A stretch of DNA of 64,000 nucleotides from Zarea fungicola (Eukaryota; Ascomycota; Sordariomycetes; Hypocreales; Cordycipitaceae): the NCBI GenBank assembly GCA_900169235.1, contig FWCC01000080.1:186001-250000 (forward strand), given 5' to 3'. The notes under the pieces are model-generated. The model saw nothing but the letters and a program-made list of their open reading frames with translations, did not search any database and was not told the DNA's origin. The translations under genes were made by a program, and so were the position numbers. Positions 28,272 through 59,637 of this stretch are shown here, piece by piece. Numbering within the stretch: position 1 is the stretch's first letter; each line of letters begins with the position of its first letter.

Positions 28272-28683
28272 TCCTGTGCATTTCATGATAGAAACTGCTT
28301 TATTTTGCAGGTCAATAGTGTTCACTGGCTCACTCACCTTCGTGCAGTCGGCGTGAAATCCACTGGCCACGAGCGCAGGCGTTTTAGGCCAAGAAAGTCG
28401 ATGATACGTGCTACTCTGCACATGAGGAATCACATTGGTTTAATTAGAAAAAGAAGGCATTGTTGATAGATGAATTGCGGGTGTGGGCTGTTAAAATTGC
28501 AGTATTTTTAAATTTAATAGCCGCCCTGGGTATGATGTAACGGCCACTGCCTTTCACCACTGTCACTACCAGCCACCGCCGCCACAGGAGATTGATTGTG
28601 CCACCACGTTACAGTTCTTTCATATTTCTTTGCTTGCCTGCTTGGTCTTGGTCTTTTCCCATTGCATCCCCCGCTGTTTTGAC
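28272..28683. other. Intergenic region
   Basis: Promoter region of the amidase. No feature is recognised. Confidence 0.5.
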
Positions 28684-30819
28684 ATGGATGATTACCTTGC
28701 TCTCGCTTGTCGCCCCTCTACGCAGATTTTTCCACAATCTGCAGCCCTCGTAATGACCCCAAAGCCGTCGACAGCTGAGTTGCTTAGCCTTGATGCTGTT
28801 GCACTGCAACGCAGGCTTGAGGCTCGTCTCTTGACCAGCCTAGAGCTGGTTCAGGCCTGCCTAACTCATATTAGCAAGCATGACCAGCAGGGTGCTAGGC
28901 TGGGTGCAATGATTTCCCTTGTCCCTCGGCACCTGCAAATAGAACAGTCCGAAAGGCTGGATGCCGAACGTAGCGCAGGCCGACTCAGAGGTCCTCTTCA
29001 CGGCATACCTATTCTTGTCAAGGTTTGAGACCCCTCACCGCTACCCCTCTCTTCTTTCATATCCCTGACTACCACTGTTGAATTGAGCTGACTGCATCCA
29101 GGATGCTATCGCGACCGCACCAACGCTTGAACTTGCTACAACCGTCGGTAGTCTGGCTCTTAAACGAGCCATTATACCCAGGGGCGCCAATGTCGTGACC
29201 AAAGTGAGTCCATAGTGGCGGAATCCAGGTCTAGCACATTCTGACCCTGCGACTAGCTGGCGAAGATGGGGGCCATTGTCCTAGGCAAAACGAATCTAAA
29301 CGTAAGACCGGAGTTGCAACAGACCGACTTCGCAAGTTAATGCCGGGATTACAGGGGTTTTGCAATTTCAAGTATTTTATCCCTTTCAACCTTTTTGTTT
29401 CGCCCCACTAACATCCATGTATAGAGGTGACACAAACTCGAACGGCTGGTCCGCTGTCGGTGGACAAACTCAGTCCTCATATATTGCTCGCGCACAGAAT
29501 GAAGCAAGCCGTAGCCAAGGTGTACGAGCGGTCTGTTTATATTCGTCTCATACCTTTCTGACCAGCCTCGTAGGATCCATGCGGCTCATCAACTGGGTCA
29601 GCCGTTGGTGTCTCGGCTGGCTATGCCCCCTTGGCGCTGGGTACTGAGTCGATTGGATCAATAGTCATGCCAGCTTCAAGGGCTGCCTTGTATACCCTCA
29701 AGCCTACCCTTAATACCGTGGACATGGATGGCATCTTCAAAAGCACAGCAGAGTTGGACGCTATTGGCGGTCTGGCGAAATCCACTGCCGACCTAGCGCT
29801 TCTGGCTCAGACAGTTTTGACAGACGACGCGAGGCTTGATCTGCCACCGCGAGGTTATCTTGAATGCCTGACCAAATCATTTGAAGGGCTCCAGATTGGT
29901 TTCCTGGACCCCAGAAAGTGGTCTCTCCATCCAGACATTGTACAGCTTGATGAGTCCATTTTGACGCAGATGGTGGGTTTCCCCATCTCTATCCACCACA
30001 CATGCTAATGCGTAACAGGATGATCTGTATTTTGCGGCCATTGATTGCATAAAGAAGAATGTTCCAAGCGTCTCTGTCGTCTCACCGGTTGATTTACCAC
30101 CAGCTTCTCAACTCTGGTATGAGGGGAGAAACCCAATCGATATAATTACGGGTATGTACTGTACTCCGAATCCAATTCACAGAATTAACACGACGAAGCA
30201 TATGAAGGCAAACAGGCGATGACGGCCTGGCTCGAGTTCGCCAACGTCCCGGGTCTCAAGACAATCGAAGATGTGATCAGCTTTAATCTCAGCCACGAGG
30301 AAGAAGAATTGCCGGATTGTATGCTTGAAATCCTTCCTTGTCGAAAGAAAAATTACTGACGGCATTCTTGAAGGCTATCCTGACCAGAATCAGCTGCTTA
30401 GAGCATCACGGGAGCGTCCCACGCGGGAGGTATACGAGGCTGTCAAGGCTCGCATGAAAGAAATATCAAGAGATAATGGCATAGACCAATTATTCAGGGA
30501 GAAGGGGCTGAATGTACTGGTATTCCCCATGGACAGTCTCATGGTATTCATGTCTGCCGCGTCTGGTGAGTTTGGACGACGGTCTCCGCTGGATGCTCAA
30601 ACTGCTGACAAGCATACAGGTTACCCGCTCGCAACAATGCCGGCCGGAGTTATTCCAGCAGACGGGCGGCCTTATGGGATTGGGGTAATGGCACAAGCTG
30701 GCATGGAGAGCCTCCTTTTTCAGTTTATGAGCGCCTTTGAGGCGCATTCACCCCCACGCGGTTTGCCCTCGCGCGTGCATGACGCTCTTGAGACGAATGG
30801 CGCTGTAAAAGTAGCCTAG
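28684..30819 (+). CDS. Amidase-signature family enzyme (possible frame break)
   Basis: About ten exons (28684-29022, 29102-29203, 29257-29301, 29355-29371, 29425-29519, 29574-29972, 30019-30151, 30208-30318, 30374-30565, 30620-30819) encode an amidase of normal length. The catalytic Lys lies in HGIPILVKD, then GKTNLN, GWSAVGGQTQSS, and the signature CGSSTGSAVGVSAGYAP with both serines, then GTESIGSIV. The C-terminus has the usual PLATMPAGV and PYGIGVMAQ. Amidases hydrolyse carboxamides; the substrate is unknown. The ATG could be 28684 or 28753. Between about 29480 and 29574 no canonical splice pair keeps the frame: the conserved part before it and the signature after it are one base out of register. 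The gene is therefore either broken or misread there. Confidence 0.75.
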
Positions 30820-30938: not shown

Positions 30939-32095
30939 TTACAACGTGAAGTTGCGCAGCACTGTCTCTCCTTCGCGCAGTCGCGTGTACCCGACAGTAT
31001 CCTTCCATAGCAGCCGTTGGTTGGCGACATCCTTGGCCTCTGGGTTAAACTCAACCGGCTGCCTACCAAAAAAGTACAGCGACTTTGGCGCAGTCCTACC
31101 AGCAGCAGCCGAGGACAAGCCGGCTATAACGTCGGAAGTCCCCAGTTCAACGTACGCAGCGGGCCATTTGGCCAAAACCAAGCTACAAGAGGGCAAAGCC
31201 AGGGGAAGAGATAGGTAGATATGAAGCCTCGGATAATCCATGGCCGTCGGTAATTTATGTTGCTCGGCATCGTCCGGGGCTCAACAGTCAACATGGCGAT
31301 TTTAGTCAACGCAGGGTCAGCATCCAGTCTGCGTTGAAGTTCAACCCTAGAAAGGCGTCAACATTGAACCGGATGTTGGTAGGCACAACATGCACTCACA
31401 CCATTAAAACCAAGCAAAAATTTGACACCCCGTAGCGTCGGAAGCCGCAGTAGTGTGTAGGGTCATCTTTGCTCGCGCGCCATGTTCCTCTGGCAAAGCG
31501 CTCGGTGCTGGAGTGGATGAAGGGCTTCCATTTGTCGTCATGGAACCCTAACCTACATTTTAAATTATGAGGGCTGATGAAAATGGTCTTGTCAGAACCA
31601 ATTGATAAGCTGCTTTTCTCAAAAGTGAACATACTCATGGCTTTCACTTCCCACAACCACAGTCCTTCCAGAATCGCGATCTAAGCTCTCGAGAAGCAAG
31701 AGGCATAATAGCCAATGTCCCAGGTATTTGGACGCAAACGTCATATCGAAACCGTCTTTTGTCCAACTTTGGTTTGTAAACTCGATGAAACCGGCGTTTA
31801 AAATAATAGCACGTATCGGTGGAATGCTGCCTGTGGCAACAGATTTATTGATAGTTGTGGCTACTTTCCGTACATTTTCCATGTCAGCCAAGTCGAGCGA
31901 CAGTATTTTGTGTGCATGCGGATTCGATGGAAGGGCTCTTTGCAGGGCGGTTTGCAAGCCTTCAGCTGATCTGCTGTCACGTACTGTGTATAAGCTATAG
32001 CATCCAACAAGTTCAGGTGTCGTAAAAATCTGGGAAACAATGGCGCAACCGAGGCTCCCGTTGGAGCCGGTGACCAGTATGGTGCCTTTTACCAT
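30939..32095 (-). pseudogene. Decaying short-chain dehydrogenase/reductase
   Basis: Exon 1 (32095-31635) starts MVKGTILVTGSNGSLG, the NAD(P)-binding TGxxxxxG region, and has LDLADMENV and ILNAGFIEF. A phase-2 intron (82 bp, donor GTATGT) leads to exon 2 (31552-31400) with FARGTWRASKDDP and FRRYGVSNFC. Here the catalytic Tyr-x3-Lys is Tyr-x3-Asn. Exon 3 (31346 on) has VELQRRLDADPAL and FWPNGPLRT. The usual C-terminus (FGRQPVEFNPEAKD, LLWKDTVGYTRL) then appears one frame over, with the break near 31146-31165. The expected Gly after the Val-Asp/Glu-Pro turn is Arg. A lost active-site Lys plus a frameshift point to a dying gene. An upstream start at 32119 is also possible. Confidence 0.72.
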
Positions 32096-32119
32096 GACAC
32101 TTTCTTCCAGACTTAGCAT

Positions 32120-34960
32120 AATATTATCGAAGAAAACTGTCTCCTTGAGGGCTGGTAGGTTGTTTCGGCACTGCGTGCTTCCCGTTGCTCTCTTGGTAGA
32201 ATGTTACCACTGTCAGGTACTGGGGCTCACTTTATAGCTACCTGAGGCAAAGATGGATGGAAAACTGTGGAGTTGCGTCATTGTAGCTGGTTTGACGAAT
32301 AGAGTGTGACAATGTAGATGAGCGTAATATGAAGGAAGAAGGGAAACTCCTCAAGAGATGATCCACAAGCCATGGTTCTAGCGTGGCAGAGTACCCGGCG
32401 TGGAACCCCTGAAGCTTTTGCCAGTCGCAGTAGTAACAGTATTGCACCATGATCTAGACTGAGATCGAAGCGCGCCCATAGCAACCAATGAAGAAGTAAG
32501 CATCTCTTCCAGAATCAGAAATGAAGTGAATCATGAGTCATACAGCCTCGCCTCCAAGAAGGCGTTCAAGTTAATTTACGGTCGTCAATACGGTAATCAC
32601 TTCACTTGACTCAAAAATTGGATCAAATGCATAGAGTTAAGCTCATACTACGAATTAAACGAGTGCGAGTGCGAGTACAAGTACAACTGTGGGTACGAGG
32701 AAGATTGTCGGAATTTGTGTCCAGTGTAAACAGCGGGCATTCGCACATCTCTCATGCCGATGCTGCCGACGGGATTATAGTTGAAGCCGTGGGTATGAAT
32801 AGTATGAATAGAAATAGTATTGAAAGCCAGGAACGCGTACCAGCTATCGGCACTGCCCAGCTGTAGTTCCGGATGAGCAGGCAACGGACCTGACATCTTG
32901 GCCATATGCGGCCACAGCTGATGCCACAGCCTTTAGAAACACCTTTACAAATTTAACTGCCTTCGGACCGCCAGCGCGTCCTAATTTCTGCTGAAAGGAA
33001 GGATATCTCCGTGGCTTTTAAATCTGTCGCATAATACCACTGTTGTGACTGCTGACTCAATTCAAGCAGCGTATCCAGCGTACCCTAGATAGAATCTATC
33101 AATACCAAGAGACGTCCATCTCAGCACTGTGCCTTGTAACTGTTCGTGATCGTCCCAACAGCCTGTACATGTGACAACCAATAAACTAGCCGCTTACTGC
33201 CCAGCACCGTGGTGGCTTATACATGTCTCTGCTGCTCTCTAGCTGTAAATTGGATGTATTATTTGTTTAATTAGCGAATATATAAAGAACAGCTATTCGT
33301 CTGAAGTGGTTTCTTAATAGGACACCCCTTTCCTGCTGTGAGGTTAATCTCGCGCCGGATTCTTCTCCCATTACTTGTTACCATCGTGCATAGTGGTTAT
33401 ACCGGCTCGTCTGCGCTACTCTTACTCGACGATAAATCGACTGAAATGTTCTTCATGTGGGCAACAAAAGTTCTTATTGCATGTTGCAGCGTACCTGAGC
33501 CTACATCAACACCAACCACGATTTGTACCACCTCCGCAGTTGGCTTGTCTCTGTCAGCTATTCAAACCTGCTCAATGCACACTGCAGCGACGTTGCAACT
33601 CACCCACAAATGCAGTCCACCGCTTTCACATAGATGGCTGTTCGCATCGGGAGCAATTCTATTAAATAATACGTGCAGTAATACATCTGCTCATTCTGGA
33701 TACTCCTGTCCAAAGTGCCTGCCGTGCCTCTCTCACTTGTCCAATACAAAGTAATTTATATATATAATAATCGCTAAAAGCAATTGATTGATTATTGCAC
33801 CGGGGCTAAGCATGGCGGCGGTGCTGGTGGACAAGACGCCCACAAAAAGTTACCATTCTTGTATATAGACCGCGGAACGCTGCCTACCCTTGTGGCTGGT
33901 GGGCTTTTATTTTTCGTTCGTATGACGTATCCATTGATTCTTTTGTTGGCCTTTGCCATAAATACTCCTTGATTGTTTCTCTGGTGTACGCGACGATTTT
34001 GGTCCCTGTTCCTTGCGGTAGAAACCTCTCCGACCCATCCATCGAGTACTGTGACACCACCACGATCCATTAAGACCTATGGATATGGTGCCGGTCGCTA
34101 TCACTTCAACTTATCATACGACCCTTGAACCTTTTATTTCGTGTACCTCCCCCAATAGCAGGATACACGGTTCTGAACAGCTGTATAAGCGATTGTCGCC
34201 ATACAATACCCTACACCACGACAGCAGGTGTAACAACTGTCTATAACTGCTACGCCAAGTAGCAAAAGATCGGCATTGATACTATTCGAGCATCANNTAG
34301 ACAGACAACTATAGCTTATAACTGTAACTGCATTACAACAGGTGTAACGACCCTCATTCAAAGGTCGACATTAACGCCATAGCGAGCATTAATGCAGAGA
34401 ATAATTACTTGGTATAACTGTAGTGCGAGTACCGAACTGGTCACTCCTTCCACCAAAGCATACATCATGCACTTGCTACAGTACATTAACCCGCGGATGT
34501 ATACCGAGACAGGCGGAATAAATGTCCCTCTTTTGTTAATTAAGGATAATAGTAGGAGCAGTAGCTATGGCGGTGCTCTGGCCCCACCTAGGAACCTTCC
34601 ATGTACCTCCTGGCCCCCATGAAAGTACCTTTGGCCATTATTTAAGCAACAAGATCAAAAGCCGCTTTTAGCCATTACTTTTTTACATTCCGTGTTCACC
34701 CCTACAATTTGTTACAATAAATGATGCCATAGCCGTTTAGAGATATCATATAGCTTCAAAACAAAACCCAGAGCAGCCCCCTAACTGCCATTTACTCTTT
34801 ACATCCCCTATAAATGCTAGCTCTAATCTGATCAGTCTTAAGTCATCGGCTGATTCCCGCTCCTACGATTATGTGATGTCGATTCTGGCCAAGAGGACAA
34901 TAGAAATCATCCGACTTGTATTAATTACGACCTTAAGCGGAAGATCCTTTAACGCGGCGC
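32120..34960. other. Gene-poor AT-rich region
   Basis: About 2.8 kb without a supportable gene. Open frames such as 33338-33754 are Ser/Leu-rich chance frames. Two unresolved bases (N) lie at 34296-34297. Words such as CAGGTGTAAC (34225 and 34340) and GAGCAT recur loosely around 34220-34400, suggesting an old degenerate repeat. Confidence 0.45.
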
Positions 34961-40763: not shown

Positions 40764-42309
40764 ATGTCATCAAAGAAACAGAGCCCATTGACGTTCTCGC
40801 CAGCTTCGGTGAGCGGCCACGAAGACAAGGTGTCGCCTCAAGATGCAGGCAATACAACAACCCCTGCATCAGATTCTCAACTAGCACTTACGCCAGTGAA
40901 AAGTGTAGAGCCGGCTTACATTACTGGCATAAAGCTTTACATTACTGGCATAAAGCTTTACATTACTGGCATAAAGCTTTTTCGTGGCCTTGTCGTTAGT
41001 CGCCTTTCTTATGCTCCTCGATGTTTCTATTGTTGGCACGGTAAGTATCCCATTGCGACAAAACGCAAGGAGACGATGAAGCAGCATACAGGATATAATG
41101 AGTTGATACTGATACTCTCTACAGGCCATTCCTAGAATCACGAGCGACTTCCACTCCCTTAAAGATGCCGGCTGGTATGGTAGCGCATATCTGTTTGCCA
41201 TCTGCTCTCTGCAGCCACTTGCTGGAAAGATCTACACATACTTTGACTCCAAAATTACATTTCTCGGCTTCTTTGCCATATTTGAGGTTGGCTCTCTATT
41301 ATGTGGCGTTGCAAAATCGTCCAAAATGCTCATCGCGAGCAGAGTCGTCGCCAGATTGGGCGGCGCTGGACTCATGAACGGTGCTCTTACCATCATCTCA
41401 GCTGCTGTGCCTTTATCCAAGCGACCGATGTATATGGATGCCATGATGGGCAGTATGTTTACTCCTTTCTGACTTCAGTCTATGATGGAAAACCAACTAT
41501 TATTCTAGTTGCTCAAATGGGTGTTGTCTTTGGCCTGCTACTTGGCGGACCATTCACCGAAAATACCACTTGGCGCTGGTGCTTCTATACCAACTTACCC
41601 ATTGGCGCTCTCGTTACTGTCCTGCTGTTTGCAAGTTCTATACCCTCTAGTAATGTCAAACCCCGTGGGCAGCAACTCTTCCAGACCATCTATCACGAGC
41701 TCGACCTACCACTCTTTATCCTTTTCGCGCCATCTATTATTATGCTGCTGCTCGCACTGGAATGGGGTGGCAGTGCCTATCCGTGGAAAAGCGCTCCTCA
41801 TTTTCAATGCGATAAACGCCTTTCAAGTTCTATGCAAAAACGAACAAGCAGCGAGCCACCCCTCCATATTGCCGCTGAATCCTTTTGCCAAAGGCACGTC
41901 AAATCTCCCCCCCGCGGGCTGTTCGCCGTCTATCAGACGCCTCTCTGACTCCAGTAGTTCCCCTATTACGCTTCTCCGACAAGGACACAGTCTCCAACGG
42001 CACAATAATGAAGAATGCACCGATATTGCGTTCAAGACTCTTGAGTACGAGACTGGGCATATAGTGGACACTATATGTTCAAGGGATCAGACGCACGTCG
42101 ATTTCCGTACGATGTTGGTATTTATTCCCAACTTATTGTTCAAGGCACTCAGCACGCTCATGCAAGAGTCAGAAAATAAGTGTCCTCAAAGCAGAATTGA
42201 ACTAGATAAGCACAAGATGGCTTGCTGCAAGTATGATTACCATAGTCTCTACTCTGCGTTGTTTACTAACAGAAAAGCAGAGCGCTATCTTACGATGCTG
42301 GGAATGTAA
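40764..42309 (+). pseudogene. MFS drug transporter (DHA14-type) pseudogene
   Basis: Exon 1 starts MSSKKQSPLTFSPASVSG and reaches EPAYITGIKL. A 21-bp unit is then repeated (YITGIKL three times), and one extra T in CTTTTTCG (about 40978-40982) throws the frame. The true continuation FVALSLVAFLMLLDVSIVGT is one base over. Exon 2 (41125-41452) is well preserved: AIPRITSDFHSLKDAGWYGS, LARSRVVARLGGAG-like motif C region. Exon 3 (from 41509) has GVVFGLLLGGPFTENTTW and RWCFYTNLPIGALV. After LLALEWGGSAYPWKSAP (about 41795) the family match ends and unrelated sequence follows. Triplication, frameshift and loss of the C-terminal half make it non-functional. The relatives are plasma-membrane toxin or drug exporters. 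Confidence 0.8.
40917..40979 (+). repeat. 21-bp direct triplication inside the MFS pseudogene
   Basis: The unit TTACATTACTGGCATAAAGC(T) stands three times in perfect tandem. It adds two extra seven-residue copies at the start of the first transmembrane segment. Perfect identity suggests recent replication slippage. Confidence 0.92.
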
Positions 42310-44895: not shown

Positions 44896-45396
44896 TTACC
44901 AGAATCGGTTGTGGGGGTCGACCTTGTGAGGGTCGACAGCTCTGGCCTCGCTTGCCTGTCCTTCTTCCTTCTTCCAGAAGCGGTTGTGGGGGTCAACCTT
45001 GTGAGGGTCGACAAAGGAATCCTCGTGCACCTTGGCCTCCTCCTTCTTCCAGAAGCGGTTGTGAGGGTCAACCTTGTGAGGGTCGACAACTCTGGCCTCG
45101 CTTGCCTGTCCTTCTTCCTTCTTCCAGAAACGGTTGTGGGGGTCAACCTTGTGAGGGTCGACAAAGGAATCCTCGTGCACCTTGGCCTCCTCCTTCTTCC
45201 AGAAGCGGTTGTGGGGGTCAACCTTGTGAGGATCGACAAAGGAATCCTCGTGTACCTTGGCCTCCTCCTTCTTCCAGAAACGGTTGTGAGGGTCAACCTT
45301 GTGAGGATCAACGAAGCTATCTTGGATTGGCTCAATGGCGAGGGCAGCAGCACTGCCCAAACCGGCGAGGACGAAAAGAGATGAAGAGAATTTCAT
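44896..45396 (-). CDS. Repeat-containing secreted precursor, candidate dikaritin-type RiPP peptide
   Basis: The protein has 166 residues in one exon. Residues 1-20 are a signal peptide (MKFSSSLFVLAGLGSAAALA), followed by IEPIQDSF. The rest is six identical copies of VDPHKVDPHNRFW. The first five are each followed by a 12-residue spacer starting KKEE; the last ends the protein. Two spacer types occur, in the order A-A-B-A-B: KKEEAKVHEDSF and KKEEGQASEAR plus V or A. The Lys-Lys after each core Trp is a candidate Kex2-family cleavage site in the secretory path. This signal-core-dibasic-spacer layout is that of Kex2-processed repeat proteins and of UstA/PhomA-type RiPP precursors. A UstYa-type oxidase gene lies 1.1 kb away, divergent. 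Other Kex2-processed proteins (repellents, pheromone precursors) are alternatives; the cores lack the cysteines usual in alpha-type pheromones. The opposite-strand and second-frame open frames here are shadows of the repeat. Confidence 0.88.
   Translation of the reverse strand: MKFSSSLFVLAGLGSAAALAIEPIQDSFVDPHKVDPHNRFWKKEEAKVHEDSFVDPHKVDPHNRFWKKEEAKVHEDSFVDPHKVDPHNRFWKKEEGQASEARVVDPHKVDPHNRFWKKEEAKVHEDSFVDPHKVDPHNRFWKKEEGQASEARAVDPHKVDPHNRFW
44899..45312 (-). repeat. 75-bp coding tandem repeat (six cores)
   Basis: Five full 75-bp units plus a final 39-bp core. Units differ at few positions apart from the two spacer types. The near identity indicates recent duplication or ongoing homogenisation. 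It is not a CRISPR array: the units are coding and contiguous. Confidence 0.95.
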
Positions 45397-46500
45397 ATTG
45401 GAGTCGAGTTCGAGCGTTAATTGCTCGAATTTTGGGTTTGATAATTGATTTTAATGGTGTGAGTTGTCTTTTTTCAAAGTGAATGCAACCACGTGGATTA
45501 CACCTGCTTTATATAGTCAAAATAATCCATGATTCCATTCAAGCTATGCTTCCTAATGGAACTTTTGTTGCTTTTCTTGCTCACGGTTTGTTCATGAGCT
45601 TTTCAATGGGTCTTGAAGCCACAGTTTTGTACTAATATCTTACGTCGTCAACAGGCTTCTCATTCCATTCCATGCGTAGAGAGCTGGTTCTTGAAGTCAA
45701 AGAGGAACTCCAAGCCCATCGGCAGTACTCCGTATCAGTCTGTCAACTGGAGAACTGGGGTCATGTACCGGTTCCCCACGCGGTACGGTCGACCAGTGGA
45801 GATTGGGTTGCTATTCCTGCTACTGGGTTTCCCGCAAACCAGACCGCGCGACTATTAAAAAGGAAGCTACAAACCCAAGGCTAGGTCAGAGAAGGAAGGC
45901 AGTTATGGGTGGGACATTGAATGGGGAAGCTAAGCCTACATGCGTAATAGATGGCGTGCGTTTCCCGAAAAGTGGGCGGCAAGCTCGGCCTTCGTCATAT
46001 GGCACCGTTGTACGGGCGAAGCGTAAAACTTGCGTTGCGGACCGGCAAAACTTTATCAGACGCCCAAATTACAAAACACCTTCCGTTCCTGACACTAGCA
46101 ATCTGACCGTTCTATACCGCTTTAGGTTCTGAATCATACGGTAACTGGAGAAGCTCCCCGATAAACGGTTACAATTTTCAAAATAAGAGTATCAAAGGAC
46201 CTTTTGTTCACGGGACTGCTTAGAGATTCCAATCCGCCACAATTCCACAGACTACTGTGGCATTGTAATCCCTCCTGTTATCAGTCTCGACTCTCATACT
46301 CTTCCCTGAGTGGATATGATGCACGACGTGGCGGGGTGGCTTACTGTTATTGCATATTACAAAGCGGAACCTTTCCAACAACTAATCAATGGAGAAGCTA
46401 TTAAGTAGACGCCAGCGTGCATTCTACAAGCATTGCTCTCTACCAATTGCGTGACGGAACGTGCTGTGGGCAAGCGCGTTCACTTCCATTCGTCTTGAAA
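45397..46500. other. Divergent region between precursor and UstYa-type gene
   Basis: About 1.1 kb. Overlapping short frames (45613-46132) show no domain and I do not call them. The region probably holds both promoters of the RiPP pair. Confidence 0.45.
45489..45516 (-). promoter_or_regulatory. Promoter of the RiPP precursor: CCACGTGG and TATA box
   Basis: On the minus strand CTATATAAAG (45507-45516) lies about 115 bases before the ATG at 45396. Just next to it, inside this interval, is the palindrome CCACGTGG (45489-45496), an E-box of the kind bound by bHLH factors. It sits downstream of the TATA box, so its role is uncertain. Confidence 0.5.
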
Positions 46501-47533
46501 ATGCTAAAGAATTCCGTTTCCAAGTATTTTGACAATGCCAAAGCAGGAGATTATAGCCCACTGCAGTACCAGGATGCCCATGTGAACGATGAGATCTCTG
46601 GGCAGGGTCATAGCTCACACAACATCACAAGGCAAAAGTCTTGGAGCAAGTGGATGTCTATCAGCTTTACTGTACTCCCCTGGATGCTATCGGCTTTGCT
46701 AGCTTGCATTATTGTGCACTATCACACTCATGGCGGCGACAGATTTCATCAGCACAAGTTGTACGCTTCTCAACTGACCTACTCGCCAGCGCAAGACGTG
46801 ATTGAATACGAACTGAAAATGTATCATTCAGGCATTAGCGAAGCTCCAGTCGAGTTTCAAGGACCTCCATCGAAGGAACTTGATCAAGCATGGGACTCGT
46901 TATATAACTGTTAGTTTAATCCTGCGTCTGTTTTCCATTATTAAAAGCTAATACATCCTAGTTGGCATATCGACAGTCTCAAAGTCAGAAGCCAAGCTCA
47001 TGACGAACTACACGTCGCCGGTCCCAAACCACGAGGACAGACATATTATGGAGCTTGATGTATTTCACCAACTCCACTGCTTGGTAAGGACATTGCAAAA
47101 TCACATCTGTTCATTAATTAACGGCTGTCTCTAGAACATGTTCCGTAAGGCACTCACTCCCATCTACCTTCAAGACTGGGAGCCAGTCAGGGACCCAGAT
47201 ATCTCAAAAGACAATTGGACTATCCCAGCGTGGCCATTTGACGAACTTGAGAAAAACCGGGTTGAGCACGGGATAAATCCATGGCACATTGGTCACTGCC
47301 TGGAGAGCATTCGGCAGTCACTCATGTGCCATGCAGACGTCACCCCTGCCGTATGGCACTGGGATAAGTCGGCGTCAAACCCAACTCGAAACAAGCCTTG
47401 GCTTACGGTGCCACATACCTGTCGCAACTTTGATCGTATTCGAGATTGGGGTTTGAAACACAAGCTGCAGTGGGACTTTGACTATGAAGTAAGGCTGCCT
47501 GAAGACTTTGAGGTGCCCACGTATCCAGGGTGA
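46501..47533 (+). CDS. UstYa-family (DUF3328) oxidase
   Basis: Three exons (46501-46909, 46962-47083, 47135-47533) join in phase to 309 residues. Introns are 52 and 51 bp with GTTAGT and GTAAGG donors. The ATG at 46501 (MLKNSVSKYF) is followed by a cytosolic stretch and one membrane span at about residues 53-73. Both HxxHC motifs that define the family are present: VFHQLHC (172-176) and WHIGHC (228-232), the latter followed by ESIRQSLMCHADVTP. UstYa-type proteins are copper-dependent oxidases that crosslink or oxidise residues of RiPP cores (ustiloxin, phomopsin, asperipin), and also act in some non-ribosomal peptide paths. Membrane anchoring in the secretory path fits a secreted precursor. 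Placed beside the repeat precursor, it most likely acts on the VDPHKVDPHNRFW cores. Confidence 0.93.
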
Positions 47534-47836: not shown

Positions 47837-48892
47837 ATGCCGCACCCAGCGCTATTTGCACCGGATATTCTTCTTGACATCTTTCTCAGACTCCCGCAAC
47901 AGGACTTACTTCTGGTGCAAAGAGTTTGCCGTATGTGGCACGAATTCATCTCAGACAGTCATGCTCTCCAGGTCGCGCTCTTCTTTCAACCAGACGCAGA
48001 TACAAGTACACAGCGGCCGAGCGACAATGAGGTGGTGCTGAACCCGCTCCTGAGAGCACGTTTCCCTTCCTTCTTCGAGCTTTCTTCAAGAGTTCCGAGA
48101 CAGCATGCCTGGCTTCTAGGTCCCTGGTTTGACTCACACTGGGCTGAGAGCCTTCATTCATCACCATCCAGTGCGGATGCCAACCCAGACTCTGCTGGCG
48201 CTCCCTCCACAGTGGGAGAGAGCCGAGATGCGCGGTACCCAGAGCTCGATCAGCAGCGGTCCGACGCATACAGGCGACGCGGTGCAAGCTGGCGGAGGAT
48301 GATTCCGTGTCGCCCAGCGCCGAGGCAGCTGCAGGTTCAGCAGCATCGTCGGCGCGTGGGACCGCGTTCGGCGGCAAGGCATGCAACCTTTTACAAGATG
48401 GACTTTGAAAACTGTGGCGGAGGCGGAGCTGCCAGTCACGACGGTGACTCTGCTGCTGCGGAAGCCAGCGGGAGCGTACATGTGCGTCATCTCACATTTG
48501 GGCTCATTTACGATGTAGCAGATTCCACCTTTTTTCACCGTATACCATACCCGGCATACAGTATAACTTTCGACTATAGTTTCAAGGACCGAGTCTCCTC
48601 GCTGCCCATGCTGCCTGCCTTCGTTTCTGGGCCGTCACAAACCCGCATGACGGTAGAGGAGAGACTGAAGGGGACCAAGGCACAAGGATATAGTGCTCCG
48701 GAACAGCTACAAAAGGAGCTTCAAGAAGGCAAATTAGGTGGCAACGGAACGCTCGTCATGCATCTATCAGGAGATATGCTCTCCATAACCGGGCACCGGC
48801 GATCGCCATACCAGGGACAATTTACAGTCGAAGAGCCCTATGCTGTAGATCAAATCGATTGGACCGATAAATTTGATTACATCTGTACATGA
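47837..48892 (+). CDS. F-box domain protein
   Basis: The protein has 351 residues in a single exon. The N-terminus APDILLDIFLRLPQQDLLLV plus QRVCRMWHEF is an F-box. Members link substrates to Skp1-cullin ubiquitin ligases. The fungal subfamily marks NPLLRARFPSFF and ASWRRM follow. Residues about 150-185 are Arg/Pro/Gln-rich and read unlike the family at that point. As other frames are open there too, a compensated frameshift cannot be excluded. The C-terminal half has no domain I recognise. It lies about 300 bp after the UstYa-type gene on the same strand; F-box proteins are not known parts of RiPP paths, so the link is probably only positional. Confidence 0.78.
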   Translation: MPHPALFAPDILLDIFLRLPQQDLLLVQRVCRMWHEFISDSHALQVALFFQPDADTSTQRPSDNEVVLNPLLRARFPSFFELSSRVPRQHAWLLGPWFDSHWAESLHSSPSSADANPDSAGAPSTVGESRDARYPELDQQRSDAYRRRGASWRRMIPCRPAPRQLQVQQHRRRVGPRSAARHATFYKMDFENCGGGGAASHDGDSAAAEASGSVHVRHLTFGLIYDVADSTFFHRIPYPAYSITFDYSFKDRVSSLPMLPAFVSGPSQTRMTVEERLKGTKAQGYSAPEQLQKELQEGKLGGNGTLVMHLSGDMLSITGHRRSPYQGQFTVEEPYAVDQIDWTDKFDYICT

Positions 48893-49663: not shown

Positions 49664-51870
49664 TCACTCGCTATTGTCTCCAGTCGGCGCCATGAAACCA
49701 AAAAAGTCTCCGCCGCCGTTGAGAGCACCAAGCAGAATATCGTCCAGCCAGCCAATGCCAGTCGTCGACGAAGAGAACAGGGTCAGACCGGGGAAATCCC
49801 ACTCAAACACAAACTGGTCGGGGACAAACGAATCTAGGTCGCCCTTTGCTGAAGACCCATGAAACTCAGCATCAGCAGCCGGCCCCTCGTTGCCGCTACC
49901 GGTCGCGTCCAACTGCCCATACTCCCCACGGAGCGCCCGCGTGAACTTGTCCATGCCTGTGCGCAGGAGCTGCAGGTACATCTTGGCCGTGGTATTGGAG
50001 ATGCCGCTCATCGCGGCCCCGCCCGCAGCCCCGAGCTCCTGCGCCAGAATCAGGCCGCAGCGGACCAGGTCGTCGCTGACGCTGGCGCTGTCCTCGGGCA
50101 GCAGGATGCACAGCTTGAGGAGCAAGAGGTAGCAAAAGGCGCACTTGGCCCACACAAAGTCCATGGCGTAGCGCAGGTAGTGCAGGTACAGGCGCGGCTC
50201 CGCGATGATGGTCTGCAGGTGCTGTCGGAGCGCCTCCTTGGCCATGGCGAGGATGGAGCGCTGCGCGGGGGACATGAAGTCGACGTTCTCCACGCCGGCG
50301 GCCTTGACGGCGCGGCAGAGGGCCATGGTGTTGGCCCAGCACTTTTGCACGCGCAGGTTGACGCGGATCCAGGCGGGCACGTCGCGCATCTGCTCGAGCA
50401 TGCGCTCCCAGTCGCTGTGCCACAGCTCAATGTCGATTTTCGCGTCGCGCACCAGGCTCAGAATCTCCTCCTCGTCTTCGTACGCTGGATCGGACAAGGA
50501 GGCAAAGATGTTGGCGCGCAGCACATTCAGCTCCACCTGCGCAAAGAGGAATCGGTCCAGCACGGTGGCGTGCGGGCTGTCGAGAATGATTCTCGTGCGT
50601 CGCGGATCTCCGACGAATTTAAACGTCATCATGTCGCCCGCGTCGACGTGGAGTATGAAGCTCAGAACAAGCAGGTGAAACCAGGTTCGGGTTTGCCGCA
50701 TCAGCGCGTCAGCACCGGTCAAGTGGCGGCCTCCGTCGTTGACCATGGCTGCGCTCATTTCATCATACGAGTCTGGCAAGCCAATCTCAATGGCTAGTCG
50801 TGTCGCGCTCGCAACAAAGAGCGATCGCTCCGCTGAGTAGCAGGCCCTAACCATGAGCGCCTGCACCGTCTCTAGGGAGGCCGGAACCGGCGTTGAAAGC
50901 ACGCTGCTTATCATTCGCTTGAGATGAAAGTTGAGCAGCCGCCATTCATGCGAATCGGTCCCACAGACGACGCGGCAACCCACTGTGCAGATGGTGGCGA
51001 AGAGAAAGCTAGAGCGCTGCCTGATGCTCGGCATAGTATCGTACGCTGGGTCGAATACGGGGACATAGTGATCGCAGCCCTCAAAAAAGGTGGTAAAGTA
51101 CTTTTCCGCTTGCTCCATCGTGAGCAGCCCAATGGACACAAAGTCGGGTAGGCGCCCCGCCTCCACGATGAAATGCGACCGCCGGCTCTTGCGCGGGGCT
51201 TGGCTGATTACTGGCGATCCATGTGTCGAAGTTTGATGATTCTGGGCCGATTCCATGTATCCCGAGACGTGATTGCCCGCACCGCCGCGGTACGCATCCA
51301 GTCGCAGAGGCTGGGCTGTCGCGATTGGGTCGTAGGGGCTGGTGGAAGCGGCCAAACCCGTCGGCGACGCTTGCTCTATTGAGCGCGTGGTTGACCGAGT
51401 GGCTTCCGCGCTGTGTGATTGTGTGTCCAGTCGTTTTTGCAAATTTGTCATTTGCTCATGTAAAGAGTCAATCTTTCTTCAACGGAACGTATCAAATCAG
51501 CGAATGAAGGATGGGCACGTCAGGTTGCGCAAAACGTACTCTTGGTAGGGGTCTTTCGGCCTCTCTGCATAGTTGCAGGCTTTACTCAAGGCGCGACATC
51601 TACATGATGGTGAGTAAACTACTGAAGAAATCTGCGAGAAGCGACGGACCTGGTGCATGGATTTAGGCCATTGCATTTTACCTGCCCGCGGTTAGCACAA
51701 GCCGCAATGCATGGGTTGAGTTTGTTTAGCCACCAACTTTGGACAGTCGGCATGCAGCGCAGGCTTTCTTCGTATTCATTAGCTTCGTTCAAAGCATCCC
51801 CTGTTATACTTCTTACCGGTATTCTTTTTTTACGCGGCCTGGCTGACCTGCTCTCCTGTGAGTCGGACAT
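49664..51870 (-). CDS. Zn(II)2Cys6 transcription factor with DNA-binding domain split over small exons
   Basis: Five exons (51870-51817, 51767-51738, 51681-51650, 51599-51539, 51472-49664) join in phase to 661 residues. Exon 1 gives a basic N-terminus (RPRKKRIP). Exon 2 is only 30 bp (KACAACRLSK). Exon 3 is 32 bp (VKCNGLNPCT). Exon 4 gives CRALSKACNYAERPKDPYQE. Together they form a perfect zinc cluster, C-x2-C-x6-C-x5-C-x2-C-x6-C. Exon 5 starts IDSLHEQMTNLQKRL, a coiled-coil dimerisation helix, then the fungal regulator domain (VEAGRLPDFVSIGLLTMEQA, YFTTFFEGCDHYVPVF). This N-terminal style is common in regulators of secondary-metabolite clusters. It is the nearest regulator to the RiPP pair, about 4 kb from the UstYa-type gene. 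Confidence 0.88.
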
Positions 51871-52851
51871 GTCAACCGTAGTGAGCCTGTGATGAATTGA
51901 AACTCTACCAAGGACTGAATGTCTGGATGGGGCATTGTTACGGGCAGTTCAGTTGCGCCACTAGAGCTCCAGCGGCCAATCATTGCATTGGTTGACCACT
52001 CCTGGAACAGAGCAGTCAGACAGCACTAATCCTCAGACCACACATGTACTGTAGAAAAAACAATCGACTATATACAATAAAAATTGTATTTTATTGTGTG
52101 ATGTCTTATTTCTCCAAAGCGTTCCAATTTCAGCTCAAGTCAGGCCGGACATGGTGCACCAGTTGGTAAATAAGACGAGGCTCCTGTCCCTAACGTATAG
52201 TTACACTGGAGGGAATGTTGGACCCTCTCGAATCGCGGGGTATTTTCCCTTTTTGACTGGTCAACAAACTCCCACTGCTAAAAATAATTTCGTTGTAGAA
52301 GACGGGCACGAGAAGTTGACTGCTTTGGAGAGTGTCATGTACTATAAGATCACTTATACCCCATTCTTGCGACTAGCTATTGAGAACATTTCCAGCCGGG
52401 CAAGATGCACCGAGCTCGAGTTGGATTAGTTCTGGCCGCCGTACCTAGTTGTCACTTCAAGGAACTACACTGCGCACATTGCCGAAATCCATTGTTGCGG
52501 GCCAGTCTGCGTCGCCTAGCTTTGTTGCTGGATTTACCCGATGATTTTTTTGGAATTTTTTTAATGTCCCCATCTACATTTGACCAGAAACTTGATGCAA
52601 GAAATCAATCAGTTTATTTACCGTATTTGTTGCCGACCGGGTCAGCTGGTTAGCTTCCGACGATCCGTAGGCCACCTTGAATGGTCGATTCCCCGCCATC
52701 TCAGTTCACCGACACCGAACAACAATTACCCGAGACGACTACGTTTGCTGGCCTATAAATAATCTCTCATCATCAGCATCAAGGTGATGTAGGCATGCCA
52801 CCAATTTCGTTCTAGCGCTAGTAACCATTGAGAGCCCAAAGTTTTCAAACC
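51871..52851. other. Divergent intergenic region
   Basis: About 980 bp between the zinc-cluster regulator and the carboxylesterase. An open frame at 52094-52429 has some coding-like composition but no domain I recognise, so it is not called. Confidence 0.4.
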
Positions 52852-54177
52852 ATGAGTGAGGGTTCAAGGATTCAGATTCAGCTTCGCGATGGCGCCATAT
52901 ACGCCATGAAGCATAATCACCTCATCAGCGCTCGTGGAGTGCGATATGCCAACGCAGCCCGATTTCAGCCACCACAACCGATCCAGCCCTGGCAAGACGT
53001 GATGGACTGCACGGGGCCGGCCACGATATGCCCGCAGCTGCCGTCACGGCTCGAGGCCCTCAACGGGCCTATTGCTGGCGGGCGCGAAATGGATGAGGAC
53101 TGCCTTCATGTCAGCATCTACGCTCCAGTTCAAGATTCCGCGAGTTCATTGCGGCCGGTCGTGGCATTCATCCACGGAGGAGGCTACACGTCCGGCGGAG
53201 GAGACCTGGACTGCTACGGCGGTGCCGGCCTTGCCGAGATCGGTGATGTTGTTGTAGTCACCATCACATACAGGCTGGGCATCCTGGGCTATCAACCCAT
53301 TGACGGTGTTGCGCCGGCGAACCTGGGTCTCCTTGACCAGATGGCAGCCCTGCGATGGATTCAAGACAACATTTCCTGCTTTGGTGGTGACCCACGGCGC
53401 GTGACTCTTGCCGGCGCTTCGGCCGGGGGCGATTCCATCTACTGCCTCTTTGGCGCCGACGGTGCAGAGGATTTGTTTCAACGAGCCATCTTTCAAAGCA
53501 CGCCTCTTGGGGTTCGACATGTGGACCGCGACGCCATGGTCAAGACGCTCGGTGCGTCTGCCAAGAAAATGTTGGGAGACGGCTATTCGACCATGGGCGT
53601 TGCGGAGGTCTTGTCCGTGCAAATGAGTCTAGCTATGGAGTCGAGAGGGTTTGCCGCTGCCGGGATGCCTTTTGCACCGACCCTTGGACACGCACCCCTT
53701 GCATGCACGCAGGCCGAGTTTGATGCTCGTGTCCGGCGTGCTCTTGCCCGCATCCCCATCTTTATCGGGTACTGCGCCGACGAGGGCACTGCATTTGAGG
53801 GCATATTCAATGCTATGAGGCCAAAAGTCAGGCCAAGCTTTACAGGCAGCGCTGCCGACTTCATATCGAGGAGTTGGTTCCAGCAGGGCTCAGACAAACT
53901 GTTGCAACAAGCTCGAGAGGCTGGCGGTGAGCCGTGGTTTTATAGGCTTACTTTTGCTCCCAAGGAGAGCCCGTTCAAGGCATCGCATACCATGGAGATG
54001 CCGTTTCTACTGGGCAACTGGGACGCGTGGAACGGTGCGCCGATGATGAAGAGCCGTGATGCCAAGAGCACTGTTGAGATGGTCGGTCCGCATGTGAAAC
54101 GGCTCTGGGCGACCTTTGCGCGGGGGGGGGATGTCGGAAGAAAGAACTTTATAATTGATGAGAGTTTCTTCGTGTAG
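52852..54177 (+). CDS. Type-B carboxylesterase / lipase family protein
   Basis: The protein has 441 residues in one exon from the ATG at 52852 (MSEGSRIQIQLRDG). Family marks in order: EDCLHVSIYAP, the oxyanion loop FIHGGGYTSGGG (about residue 105), LGLLDQMAALRWIQDNI, the nucleophile elbow GASAGGDS (about 190), CADEGTAFE with the acid residue (about 305), and KASHTMEMPFLLGN with the catalytic His (about 380). No signal peptide is seen, so it is probably intracellular. At 441 residues it is shorter than the common 500-550 but still has the whole triad. It hydrolyses an ester of unknown kind. It is divergent from the zinc-cluster regulator and may be under its control. Confidence 0.88.
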   Translation: MSEGSRIQIQLRDGAIYAMKHNHLISARGVRYANAARFQPPQPIQPWQDVMDCTGPATICPQLPSRLEALNGPIAGGREMDEDCLHVSIYAPVQDSASSLRPVVAFIHGGGYTSGGGDLDCYGGAGLAEIGDVVVVTITYRLGILGYQPIDGVAPANLGLLDQMAALRWIQDNISCFGGDPRRVTLAGASAGGDSIYCLFGADGAEDLFQRAIFQSTPLGVRHVDRDAMVKTLGASAKKMLGDGYSTMGVAEVLSVQMSLAMESRGFAAAGMPFAPTLGHAPLACTQAEFDARVRRALARIPIFIGYCADEGTAFEGIFNAMRPKVRPSFTGSAADFISRSWFQQGSDKLLQQAREAGGEPWFYRLTFAPKESPFKASHTMEMPFLLGNWDAWNGAPMMKSRDAKSTVEMVGPHVKRLWATFARGGDVGRKNFIIDESFFV

Positions 54178-56823: not shown

Positions 56824-59637
56824 ATGGGCATCAAAGATCGGTTCAGGGCTTCGGCAACCGAGGTCCCTGTTATTGAAGGTGTTACCACTGGCGCCGAGGC
56901 CGCCCCCCGCGGGGCCAAGCTTCGTGCATTTCGCAAGGAGCACCAATGGGATCCATTCCTCGACATCGAGAAGCTCGATAGCTCAACCCCCGACGAGAGT
57001 CTCGCGGAGAAGGCTTTCCCTCCCGATGAGGAGAGTCTTGAAGAGGATTCGCCGTACTCTGAGGTTCGCTCTGCAGTATGTACAGCCTAGTCTCATTCGA
57101 TTTTTTCTTGTAATCCATCTGCTAACCATTGCTATCAGGTCCCAAACAGCGACGCCGATCTCCCCATCAACACAATCCGTGCCTGGTTTCTTGGTTTTCT
57201 CTTCTGCACGATTGTCGCTGCCTGCAACATCTTGCTAGGCCTGCGAAATGCCCCCATTATCATTTCATCTACAGTTGTTCAGCTGATTTCCTACCCGTAA
57301 GTATCTTCTGCCCTTTCTCTAGTTCTGCAGATGTAAACAATTGCCCACCGGAGGTTCATGCTTACGATGACGTGCAATTCTAGTGTAGGTAACTTCTGGG
57401 CATGGGTGGTGCCGGCTTGGACATTCTCGCTGTTTGGCAAGACATTTGAGCTCAACCCCGGCCCGTTCAATGTCAAGGAACATACCCTTGTCACCATCAT
57501 GACTGCCGCAGGCACTGCGCCGAGCTACGCCATCGATATTCTACTCGCTCAAGAGATTTACTACGATCAGGCTTTCCACTGGGGCTTCCAGCTGCTTCTC
57601 ATTTTGTCGACTCAGGCCATGGGACTTGGTGTTGCCGGTATCTCGAGACGATTCCTCGTTTGGCCATCGGCAATGGTGTGGCCTGCGACGCTGGTCTTCA
57701 CATCGGTCATGTACTCGCTGCATGACCACACTCCGTCTGACCCAGCGGCTACCAACGGATGGAAAATGGGAAGATACATCTTTTTCCTCATTGTTTCTGG
57801 ATGCACCTTTGTTTGGGAGTGGATTCCAAACGTCTTTGCTACCTTTCTGTCCGTCTTTACATTCCCCATCTGGATTGCACCGAACAACGTCGTGGTCAAC
57901 CAGCTGTTCGGCTCCACCAGCGGCATTGGCATTCTCCCAATCTCTTTCGACTGGAACACCATCAGCGGCTACCTGGGTAGTCCGCTTCAATTCCCTGCCT
58001 TCGCCATCTTCAACTTGCTTGCCGGCTTTCTCTTCGTCTTCGTCGCCGCCCTGGGCATGACTTATGGAGGGCCTGACTACTTCAAGTATCTGCCAATTAG
58101 GTATGGTCCAATCCTCAGAGTTACCGAGTTGGAAAGCCTTTGAATGCTAACATGAGTCTAGTGCCAATACAAACTTTGACCACTTTGGCAAGAAATACAA
58201 TGTCTCCAGAATTCTGACCCCCGACTTTACGCTCAATGAGACGGCCTATAAGGAATACTCACCAATCATCATTGGCCCCGTGTTTTCATTGTCGTATGCA
58301 ATGTCTTTCGCTGGTCTTATCGGCACCATTACTCACGTTGCGCTGTTTTACGGGCCTGATATCTGGAGACGTGTCCGCGACTCGCGTTCGGAACAACCCG
58401 ATATTCACATGAAGCTCATGAGAAAGTACAGAGAGTGCCCGGAATGGTGGTTTTCCATCATCTTCCTCATCTCCTTTGGATTTGGTATGGCCGCTTGTCA
58501 GCACTGGCCTACTCATCTTCCCTGGTGGGCCTACATCATTGCCATCCTTATTGGCGTTGTCTTTTTCATCCCTGTGGGTATGGTTCAGGCAATTACAAAT
58601 CAGCAGACTGGTCTCAACGTCATCACCGAGTTGGTAGTTGGATTCATGTAAGTCGACCCACAAGGCCGTTATTTACCTTGTTGACATGACCAAAGAACAA
58701 AATATAGTTACTAACAGAATTCAAGGCTTCCTGGTCGCCCCGTCGCCATGATGCTCTTCAAGAGCTTCGGCTACATGATGAGCTTTAACGGCCTCAACTA
58801 CATCAGTGATATGAAGGTTGGCCACTACATGAAAATCCCCCCGCGCTCCATGTTTGCGGCTCAGGTTTTCGCCGTCACCTGGCTTTCGATTGTCCAGATT
58901 TCAACCTACAACTTCTTGCGAAACCACATTGAGGGTATCTGCACGCCCGACCAGGCCCAAGGCATCACTTGCCCCGGTGCGCGCACCTTTTTCAATGCCA
59001 GTGTTATCTGGGGTGTTGTAGGACCTGCTCGAGTCTTTGGTAAAGGAGCAATGTACGTTAAAGCCCCTAACCCCTGCCGTGCTGAGTGACAGCACAACAC
59101 GCTGAACCTTTGCGCTAACATGATCGTTGTAGCTTCTCCTGGACCAATTATTTCTGGCTGATTGGTTTCGCCCTGCCCGTTATCCATTATCTTCTGGCGC
59201 GCCGCTACCCCAAGAGCTTCCTTCGCTACATCATGTTCCCAGTCATCTTCTCTGCCACGGGCCAGCTACCACCGGCGACTCTGTACTACATGTTTGTGTG
59301 GACCTCGGTTGGTCTCTTCTTCAACTACTGGATTCGCAGGCGATACACTGGATGGTGGAGTAAGTTCAGGGCCTAAACACTGCCTGATAGTTTAGCAACG
59401 TTTCGACTAACGCATCTTTTCTAAACAGATCGCTACATCTACACCTTGTCCGGTGCCCTGGATATCGGTCTCGCCCTCTGCGTTGTCATCATTGGCATTG
59501 GCCTTGGTCTCGGCAATGCCAATTTCCCCGACTGGTGGGGTAATGTAGTGAACGCTAACACTCTCGATTGGGACGCAAAGGCCCATCAGAAAACTTGGGT
59601 GCCCGGCATGAAGCCATTTGGGCCCGAGTCCTGGTAG
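56824..59637 (+). CDS. OPT-family oligopeptide transporter
   Basis: Seven exons (56824-57075, 57139-57296, 57384-58100, 58162-58647, 58726-59052, 59133-59359, 59429-59637) join in phase to 791 residues. A hydrophilic N-terminus of about 85 residues is followed by a many-span membrane protein. OPT marks are TIRAWFLGFLFC, NPGPFNVKEHTLVTIM (the family signature), QAMGLGVAGISRRFLVWP, PGRPVAMMLFKSFGY, and ITNQQTGLNVITELVVGFM. OPT proteins couple proton flow to import of tetra- and pentapeptides, glutathione or related compounds at the plasma membrane or vacuole. It lies 9 kb from the UstYa-type gene. A role in moving the RiPP product or its fragments is possible but unproven. Confidence 0.93.

Follow-up and report, generated by a model that had tools for sequence, protein, structure and literature searches.

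A candidate two-gene UstYa-type RiPP locus with a tyrosine-free repeat precursor in Zarea fungicola

Analysis of a 64,000-nucleotide window of the genome (contig C144, positions 186001-250000, in a 43.1-Mb genome) revealed a gene for a repeat-containing precursor and, divergent from it, a gene for a protein of the UstYa (DUF3328) family. The features of the pair, numbered from the first nucleotide of the window, are as follows.

44896..45396, minus strand: repeat precursor gene, 166 aa, single exon, ATG at 45396, TAA stop
45337..45396, minus strand: likely signal peptide MKFSSSLFVLAGLGSAAALA, with A-L-A before the cut, which was placed by eye
45274..45312, minus strand: core copy 1, VDPHKVDPHNRFW
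45199..45237, minus strand: core copy 2, VDPHKVDPHNRFW
45124..45162, minus strand: core copy 3, VDPHKVDPHNRFW
45049..45087, minus strand: core copy 4, VDPHKVDPHNRFW
44974..45012, minus strand: core copy 5, VDPHKVDPHNRFW
44899..44937, minus strand: core copy 6, VDPHKVDPHNRFW, with the stop codon directly after it and no Lys-Lys
44968..45273, minus strand: stretch holding five Lys-Lys sites, each immediately 3' of a core
45268-45273, 45193-45198, 45118-45123, 45043-45048 and 44968-44973, minus strand: the individual Lys-Lys sites, at residues 42, 67, 92, 117 and 142
45397..46500, no strand: divergent intergenic region of 1104 bp between the precursor and UstYa genes
46501..46909, plus strand: UstYa gene exon 1, with a predicted transmembrane helix at about residues 54-72 (46660-46716)
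46962..47083, plus strand: UstYa gene exon 2, with HxxHC motif 1 (47066-47080, residues 172-176)
47135..47533, plus strand: UstYa gene exon 3 and stop, with HxxHC motif 2 (47285-47299, residues 228-232)

The first-pass annotation had delimited the locus as 44896..47533, an interval bounded exactly by the stop codons of the two genes. Its description of a precursor with six identical 13-residue cores, five of them followed by Lys-Lys, is borne out by the minus-strand ORF at 44896-45396, for which no intron is required. The hydropathy of the precursor reaches its maximum of 2.16 at residues 8-21 and, with the cut judged by eye, points to a likely signal peptide. The six exact copies of VDPHKVDPHNRFW recur with a strict period of 25 aa, and the underlying DNA is resolved by TRF as a 75-nt tandem array at 44899-45306. 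The core contains a short internal duplication, VDPHK-VDPHN, and ends in a Phe-Trp aromatic pair with Trp at the C-terminus; the whole precursor protein contains neither Tyr nor Cys. The calculated monoisotopic masses are 1645.8113 for linear VDPHKVDPHNRFW, 1643.7957 and 1641.7800 for its forms lighter by 2H and 4H, 1069.5093 for VDPHNRFW, and 2817.3259, 2702.2949 and 2674.2636 for the forms of 23 residues. The spacers that follow Lys-Lys are of two kinds, EEAKVHEDSF (n=3) and EEGQASEAR-V/A (n=2). Under the KEP repeat rule of Umemura 2020, which asks for at least three tandem repeats of at least 8 aa between KR, KK, RK or RR, the protein qualifies through its five KK sites, which delimit four fragments of 23 aa and a fifth running to the stop. 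A degenerate DNA pattern for DPHNRFW gave six matches in the 43.1-Mb genome, all of them in the precursor array, and its reversed control gave none. The intergenic region carries a TATATA element 119 nt upstream of the precursor ATG.

Five nucleotide columns vary across the six 39-nt cores, and all five are synonymous in the described frame. Pairwise comparison of the cores in this frame gives 37 synonymous and 0 nonsynonymous differences (pS 0.33, pN 0), which is to be read as a count and not as an independent-sample test, the copies being related by duplication; in the remaining five frames, 13 to 37 of these 37 differences become amino-acid changes. Unlike the cores, the spacers differ from one another at the amino-acid level (pN 0.21). 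We conclude from the exclusively synonymous differences of the cores and the amino-acid variation of the spacers that the 13-residue core is a stretch preserved by selection. The reading-frame test rules out a gene on the opposite strand, and the lack of nonsynonymous differences among the cores rules out a decayed array. Pfam matches of the precursor to PF22659 (23.7 bits) and PF19754 (23.3 bits) lie below the cut-off of 27 and were taken as chance; identity as an alpha-pheromone was ruled out, there being no Pfam family match.

The three exons of the neighbouring gene, set by eye and by homology, are separated by GT..AG introns and together encode a UstYa protein of 309 aa. Residues 46-285 match the Pfam family UstYa, PF11807 (158.9 bits, E 2.3e-46, cut-off 25), and this match together with the two HxxHC motifs assigns the protein to the UstYa/DUF3328 family, as had been proposed for the gene divergent from the precursor. 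The hydropathy maximum at residues 54-72 suggests a single membrane helix. Both HxxHC motifs are invariant in an alignment of 15 sequences. A search of 5.8 billion proteins produced 244 candidate relatives, 107 of them at E 1e-10 or better. The closest is VHEMI08494 from Torrubiella hemipterigena, with 67% identity (BLASTP, 87% of the query), followed by five Trichoderma proteins with 55-60%; further relatives include an unnamed model (47%) and an Exophiala protein (39% over 82% of the query), and the others lie at 27-45%, except for two partial pieces with 54-55% over 40-42%. These relatives suggest a hypocrealean host. A quick tree, built from the window protein and 54 of the 107 relatives and sampled without own-genome paralogues, places the window enzyme inside a 12-row group (SH-aLRT 99) that holds the Torrubiella, Trichoderma and Exophiala sequences and three partial pieces, one flagged for its long branch. 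The best-scoring paralogue in the genome, among the loci compared, is on contig C230, with 33% identity over 227 columns; three exon pieces on contig C186 match the window protein at 39, 50 and 51% over 41, 40 and 61 residues and may represent a closer paralogue.

In the AlphaFold2 model of the Torrubiella relative (mean pLDDT 73.5), a transmembrane helix at 38-64 is followed by the HxxHC motifs on separate helices, 157-171 and 214-230, the arrangement that has been described for the copper enzyme CctR (PMC12435403). In CctR, a member of the same family, the HxxHC motifs are reported to form a binuclear copper site and the reaction to depend on O2 (PMC12435403), and from this we infer copper-dependent oxidation by the window enzyme. 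A PDB sequence search gave no match of the window UstYa to solved structures, and none of 30 matches in a fold search with the Torrubiella model reached E 0.001.

The neighbourhood was analysed by a Pfam scan of 38 selected proteins and ORFs in the window, a scan that small exons may escape. The following features surround the pair.

28495-30005: amidase pieces
31622-32203: piece of a short-chain dehydrogenase, the nearest recognised reductase-like piece, 13 kb away
41113-41945: MFS pieces in different frames, 3 kb from the pair, the nearest transporter pieces
47837-48889: F-box protein
49667-51478, minus strand: 604-aa ORF with no Pfam family, by eye like a fungal transcription factor
52825-54174: carboxylesterase
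57337-58648: OPT oligopeptide transporter, at a distance of about 10 kb, with no sign of belonging to the pair

None of these neighbours is an evident tailoring enzyme for the peptide, and no methyltransferase, peptidase or P450 family was found among the 38 proteins and ORFs. The MFS matches, in the two ORFs scanned, stop by profile position 203 of 347, and the pieces probably stem from a gene that has decayed or is split by introns. Both UstYa match rows on C144 belong to exons of the window gene, and the contig carries one DUF3328 gene. Tyrosinase gives nine match rows genome-wide, none of them on this contig; peptidase S41 has no match in the whole genome, and there is one gene with a kexin-type proprotein-convertase P-domain. 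Elsewhere in the window lie an ORF of the killer-toxin-like KP4 family (1047-1445; PF09044, 112.7 bits) and a 726-aa ORF (25768-27945) in which numerous ankyrin repeats come after a C2H2 zinc finger.

The genome contains 55 UstYa match rows, which we merged into roughly 40 loci. Repeat precursors were sought near UstYa genes only, in 51 stretches (L007-L057) comprising 30 short UstYa loci, the P-domain locus and 20 wider regions; these take in essentially all UstYa loci, with flanks read to some 1.5 kb for about 20. The same gene appears twice in L009 and L053, and likewise in L020 and L057; other-frame shadows (L020, L038, L040, L057) and a His/Arg-rich stretch (L053) were left out of the precursor count. 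Six further repeat precursors were found, on contigs C230 (L053), C439 (L054), C157 (L057), C163 (L038), C312 (L040) and C360 (L047), with the nearest UstYa match 0.9-1.5 kb away in every case. Their repeats include DILYNNxAGWG, DILYFMPVGWG, HKYSVS, YIAYGA (ten fragments), NNRGGIPW and SSVYKSYMADR. Within the sequence read, every one of the six has KR sites (C312 also RK) and contains Tyr; among the seven precursors seen, that of the window alone is KK-only and Tyr-free. No repeat precursor was found in the flank of about 1.5 kb read around the C186 UstYa pieces. Two of the tyrosinase matches, C157:123776 and C43:24646, each share a contig with a UstYa match, at distances of about 0.4 and 6 kb, respectively.

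Homologues of the precursor were absent, at E 0.001 as at E 10, among 82 candidates drawn from annotated proteins of about 91-290 aa. Relatives of the enzyme reach 55-67% identity but none of the precursor was found, so no co-inheritance of the pair was seen. The first-pass annotation had matched the core to no known one, and it was indeed not found in this protein search; nor does the string occur in open-licence main texts, a search outside which supplementary tables fall, so that a listing there is possible. The core of victorin we take to be unrelated to VDPHKVDPHNRFW. Among the Trichoderma RiPPs of Vignolle 2020, the T. reesei cluster that is detailed is of another kind (PMC7099791).

Overall, we consider it likely that the pair constitutes a minimal two-gene UstYa-type RiPP locus, and it probably makes a small modified peptide. 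This reading is favoured by the adjacent and divergent arrangement of precursor and UstYa, 1.1 kb apart; by the 0 nonsynonymous against 37 synonymous differences of the cores beside varying spacers; by copy 6, whose Trp-stop is the very end that trimming of Lys-Lys would leave in the other copies; by the PF11807 score of 158.9 bits, the invariant HxxHC motifs and their helix-borne position in the model; by the single kexin-type P-domain gene in the genome; by the six other precursor and UstYa pairs, 0.9-1.5 kb apart; and by the published observation that counts of DUF3328 genes are highest at the position adjoining repeat precursors (PMC7329392). It is disfavoured by the lack of Tyr in the core, by KK sites where the six other precursors have KR, by the lack of a recognised partner gene among the 38 window proteins and ORFs or, for tyrosinase, on the contig, by the failure to find a precursor homologue when the enzyme has relatives at 55-67%, and by the C186 UstYa pieces with no repeat precursor in their flank of about 1.5 kb. 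Kexins prefer Lys-Arg, and Lys-Lys is a weaker site. The Lys-Lys sites are a weak point of the RiPP reading, but KK is allowed by the KEP rule (PMC7329392).

In the mechanism that we propose, the precursor would enter the secretory pathway by way of its signal peptide, and UstYa, anchored by its one transmembrane helix with the catalytic domain in the lumen, would oxidise the 13-residue core at a binuclear copper site formed by the two HxxHC helices. The most likely outcome would be one or more side-chain cross-links between the Phe-Trp pair and a residue of the VDPH repeats. Kexin would then cut after Lys-Lys and a carboxypeptidase would trim the lysines to leave a C-terminal Trp, as in copy 6, with the variable spacer removed by another peptidase. 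That the enzyme acts on this peptide is quite probable. A cross-link in the core peptide is likely rather than implied, because the family has also been linked to hydroxylation, halogenation and desaturation (PMC12435403, PMC10512285), and we lean towards its formation; participation of Trp in it is a real possibility that falls a little short of an even chance. More tentative, and on balance doubtful, is the fuller proposal of a Tyr-free pathway in which a single copper oxidase would link Trp, or else Phe, to one of the His, Pro or Val residues in the duplicated VDPH units; the product would be a macrocycle based on Trp or His and freed at Lys-Lys instead of Lys-Arg.

The same breadth of chemistry allows an alternative in which UstYa modifies the core without closing a macrocycle: the peptide would stay linear and be hydroxylated, halogenated or desaturated. 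Hydroxylation is the reaction of CctR, and halogenation has been associated with the family (PMC12435403); the phomopsin UstYa homologues also desaturate (PMC10512285), and the core is without the Tyr through which ustiloxin, phomopsin and asperipin-2a are cross-linked. We nevertheless regard this alternative as unlikely, since a review describes side-chain cyclisation for all five products reported from such precursors, namely ustiloxin, phomopsin, asperipin-2a, epichloecyclin and victorin, and victorin, with a link from Phe to Leu, dispenses with Tyr (PMC9233826). It is also rather improbable that the product is a linear secreted peptide, be it a signal, pheromone-like or surface-active (cf. 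Ustilago Rep1), and UstYa an unrelated neighbour. In the survey of Umemura 2020, a DUF3328 gene is among the 15 closest genes for 1758 of the 7878 repeat precursors, which leaves 6120 with none nearby (PMC7329392); moreover, the contrast between enzyme relatives at 55-67% identity and no precursor relative, and the KK-only sites unlike those of the other pairs in the genome, would suit such a peptide. Against it stand the divergent adjacency of the two genes, the lack of a pheromone family match in Pfam, and the presence of a repeat precursor at six further UstYa neighbourhoods out of about 40, whose 1.5-kb flanks make up, by a rough estimate, some 0.3% of the genome, precursors having been sought there only. 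That the repeat ORF is no gene but a tandem DNA repeat open by chance in several frames is very improbable: four frames are open across the array, two per strand, but the core differences are all synonymous in the described frame only, and the ORF starts with a signal-like N-terminus and finishes cleanly at a core.

Five dikaritins only had been reported by 2022 (PMC10512285), against the 1758 predicted precursor and DUF3328 neighbours (PMC7329392). A two-gene, Tyr-free locus with an exact 13-residue core and predicted masses is a small system in which to learn the side chains that UstYa can connect. If Trp or His participates, the known UstYa chemistry would be widened and, were the Tyr-free pathway true, the group that this enzyme forms with the Torrubiella and Trichoderma proteins would be a separate Trp/His-directed UstYa branch; if the product is linear, it would caution against naming every precursor and UstYa pair a cyclic peptide.

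Whether the locus is of dikaritin type, as the first-pass annotation proposed, depends on the definition. By the enzyme-based definition (Montalban-Lopez 2021, as given in PMC12048977), a DUF3328 enzyme acting on a RiPP precursor, the pair is a candidate dikaritin; the five-gene definition (Ding 2015, quoted in PMC12048977), comprising a precursor, a tyrosinase, a methyltransferase, multiple DUF3328 proteins and a transporter or peptidase, does not describe the locus, given one DUF3328 gene and no tyrosinase match on the contig, no methyltransferase or peptidase among the 38 proteins and ORFs, and only MFS fragments as the nearest transporter. The further proposal that such a pair is the known minimum for these cyclic peptides was overstated, heterologous production of asperipin-2a in A. 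oryzae having taken four genes (PMC10512285). Asperipin-2a of A. flavus resembles the present case in its repeat precursor with a signal peptide, which is likely here, in its one UstYa and in needing no tyrosinase (PMC7329392, PMC12048977), but its cross-links start from Tyr and its gene set includes a reductase and a transporter (PMC12048977); here the nearest recognised reductase-like piece lies 13 kb from the pair and the nearest transporter pieces 3 kb. Ustiloxin and phomopsin share the repeat precursor cleaved at Kex2 sites and the DUF3328 enzymes, but have a Tyr-Ile link, a tyrosinase, two and five DUF3328 proteins, respectively, and further tailoring (PMC7329392). The Tyr from which cross-links of the ustiloxin, phomopsin and asperipin type are made is missing from the window core. 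Victorin of C. victoriae is the nearest precedent for closing a core without Tyr, being a multi-core RiPP closed from its C-terminal aromatic residue, Phe, to an internal Leu; it differs in being chlorinated and in having peptidases encoded in its cluster (PMC9233826). The architecture itself is that of the KEP and DUF3328 pairs of Umemura 2020, among which Tyr is found in 65.6% of the repeats and is lacking from about one-third, and whose reported types include some without Tyr and some with Trp, W and P both occurring in type P-3 (PMC7329392). The kind of locus is therefore already known, and what is unusual is the precursor with its KK-only sites and its Tyr-free, Trp-ending core.
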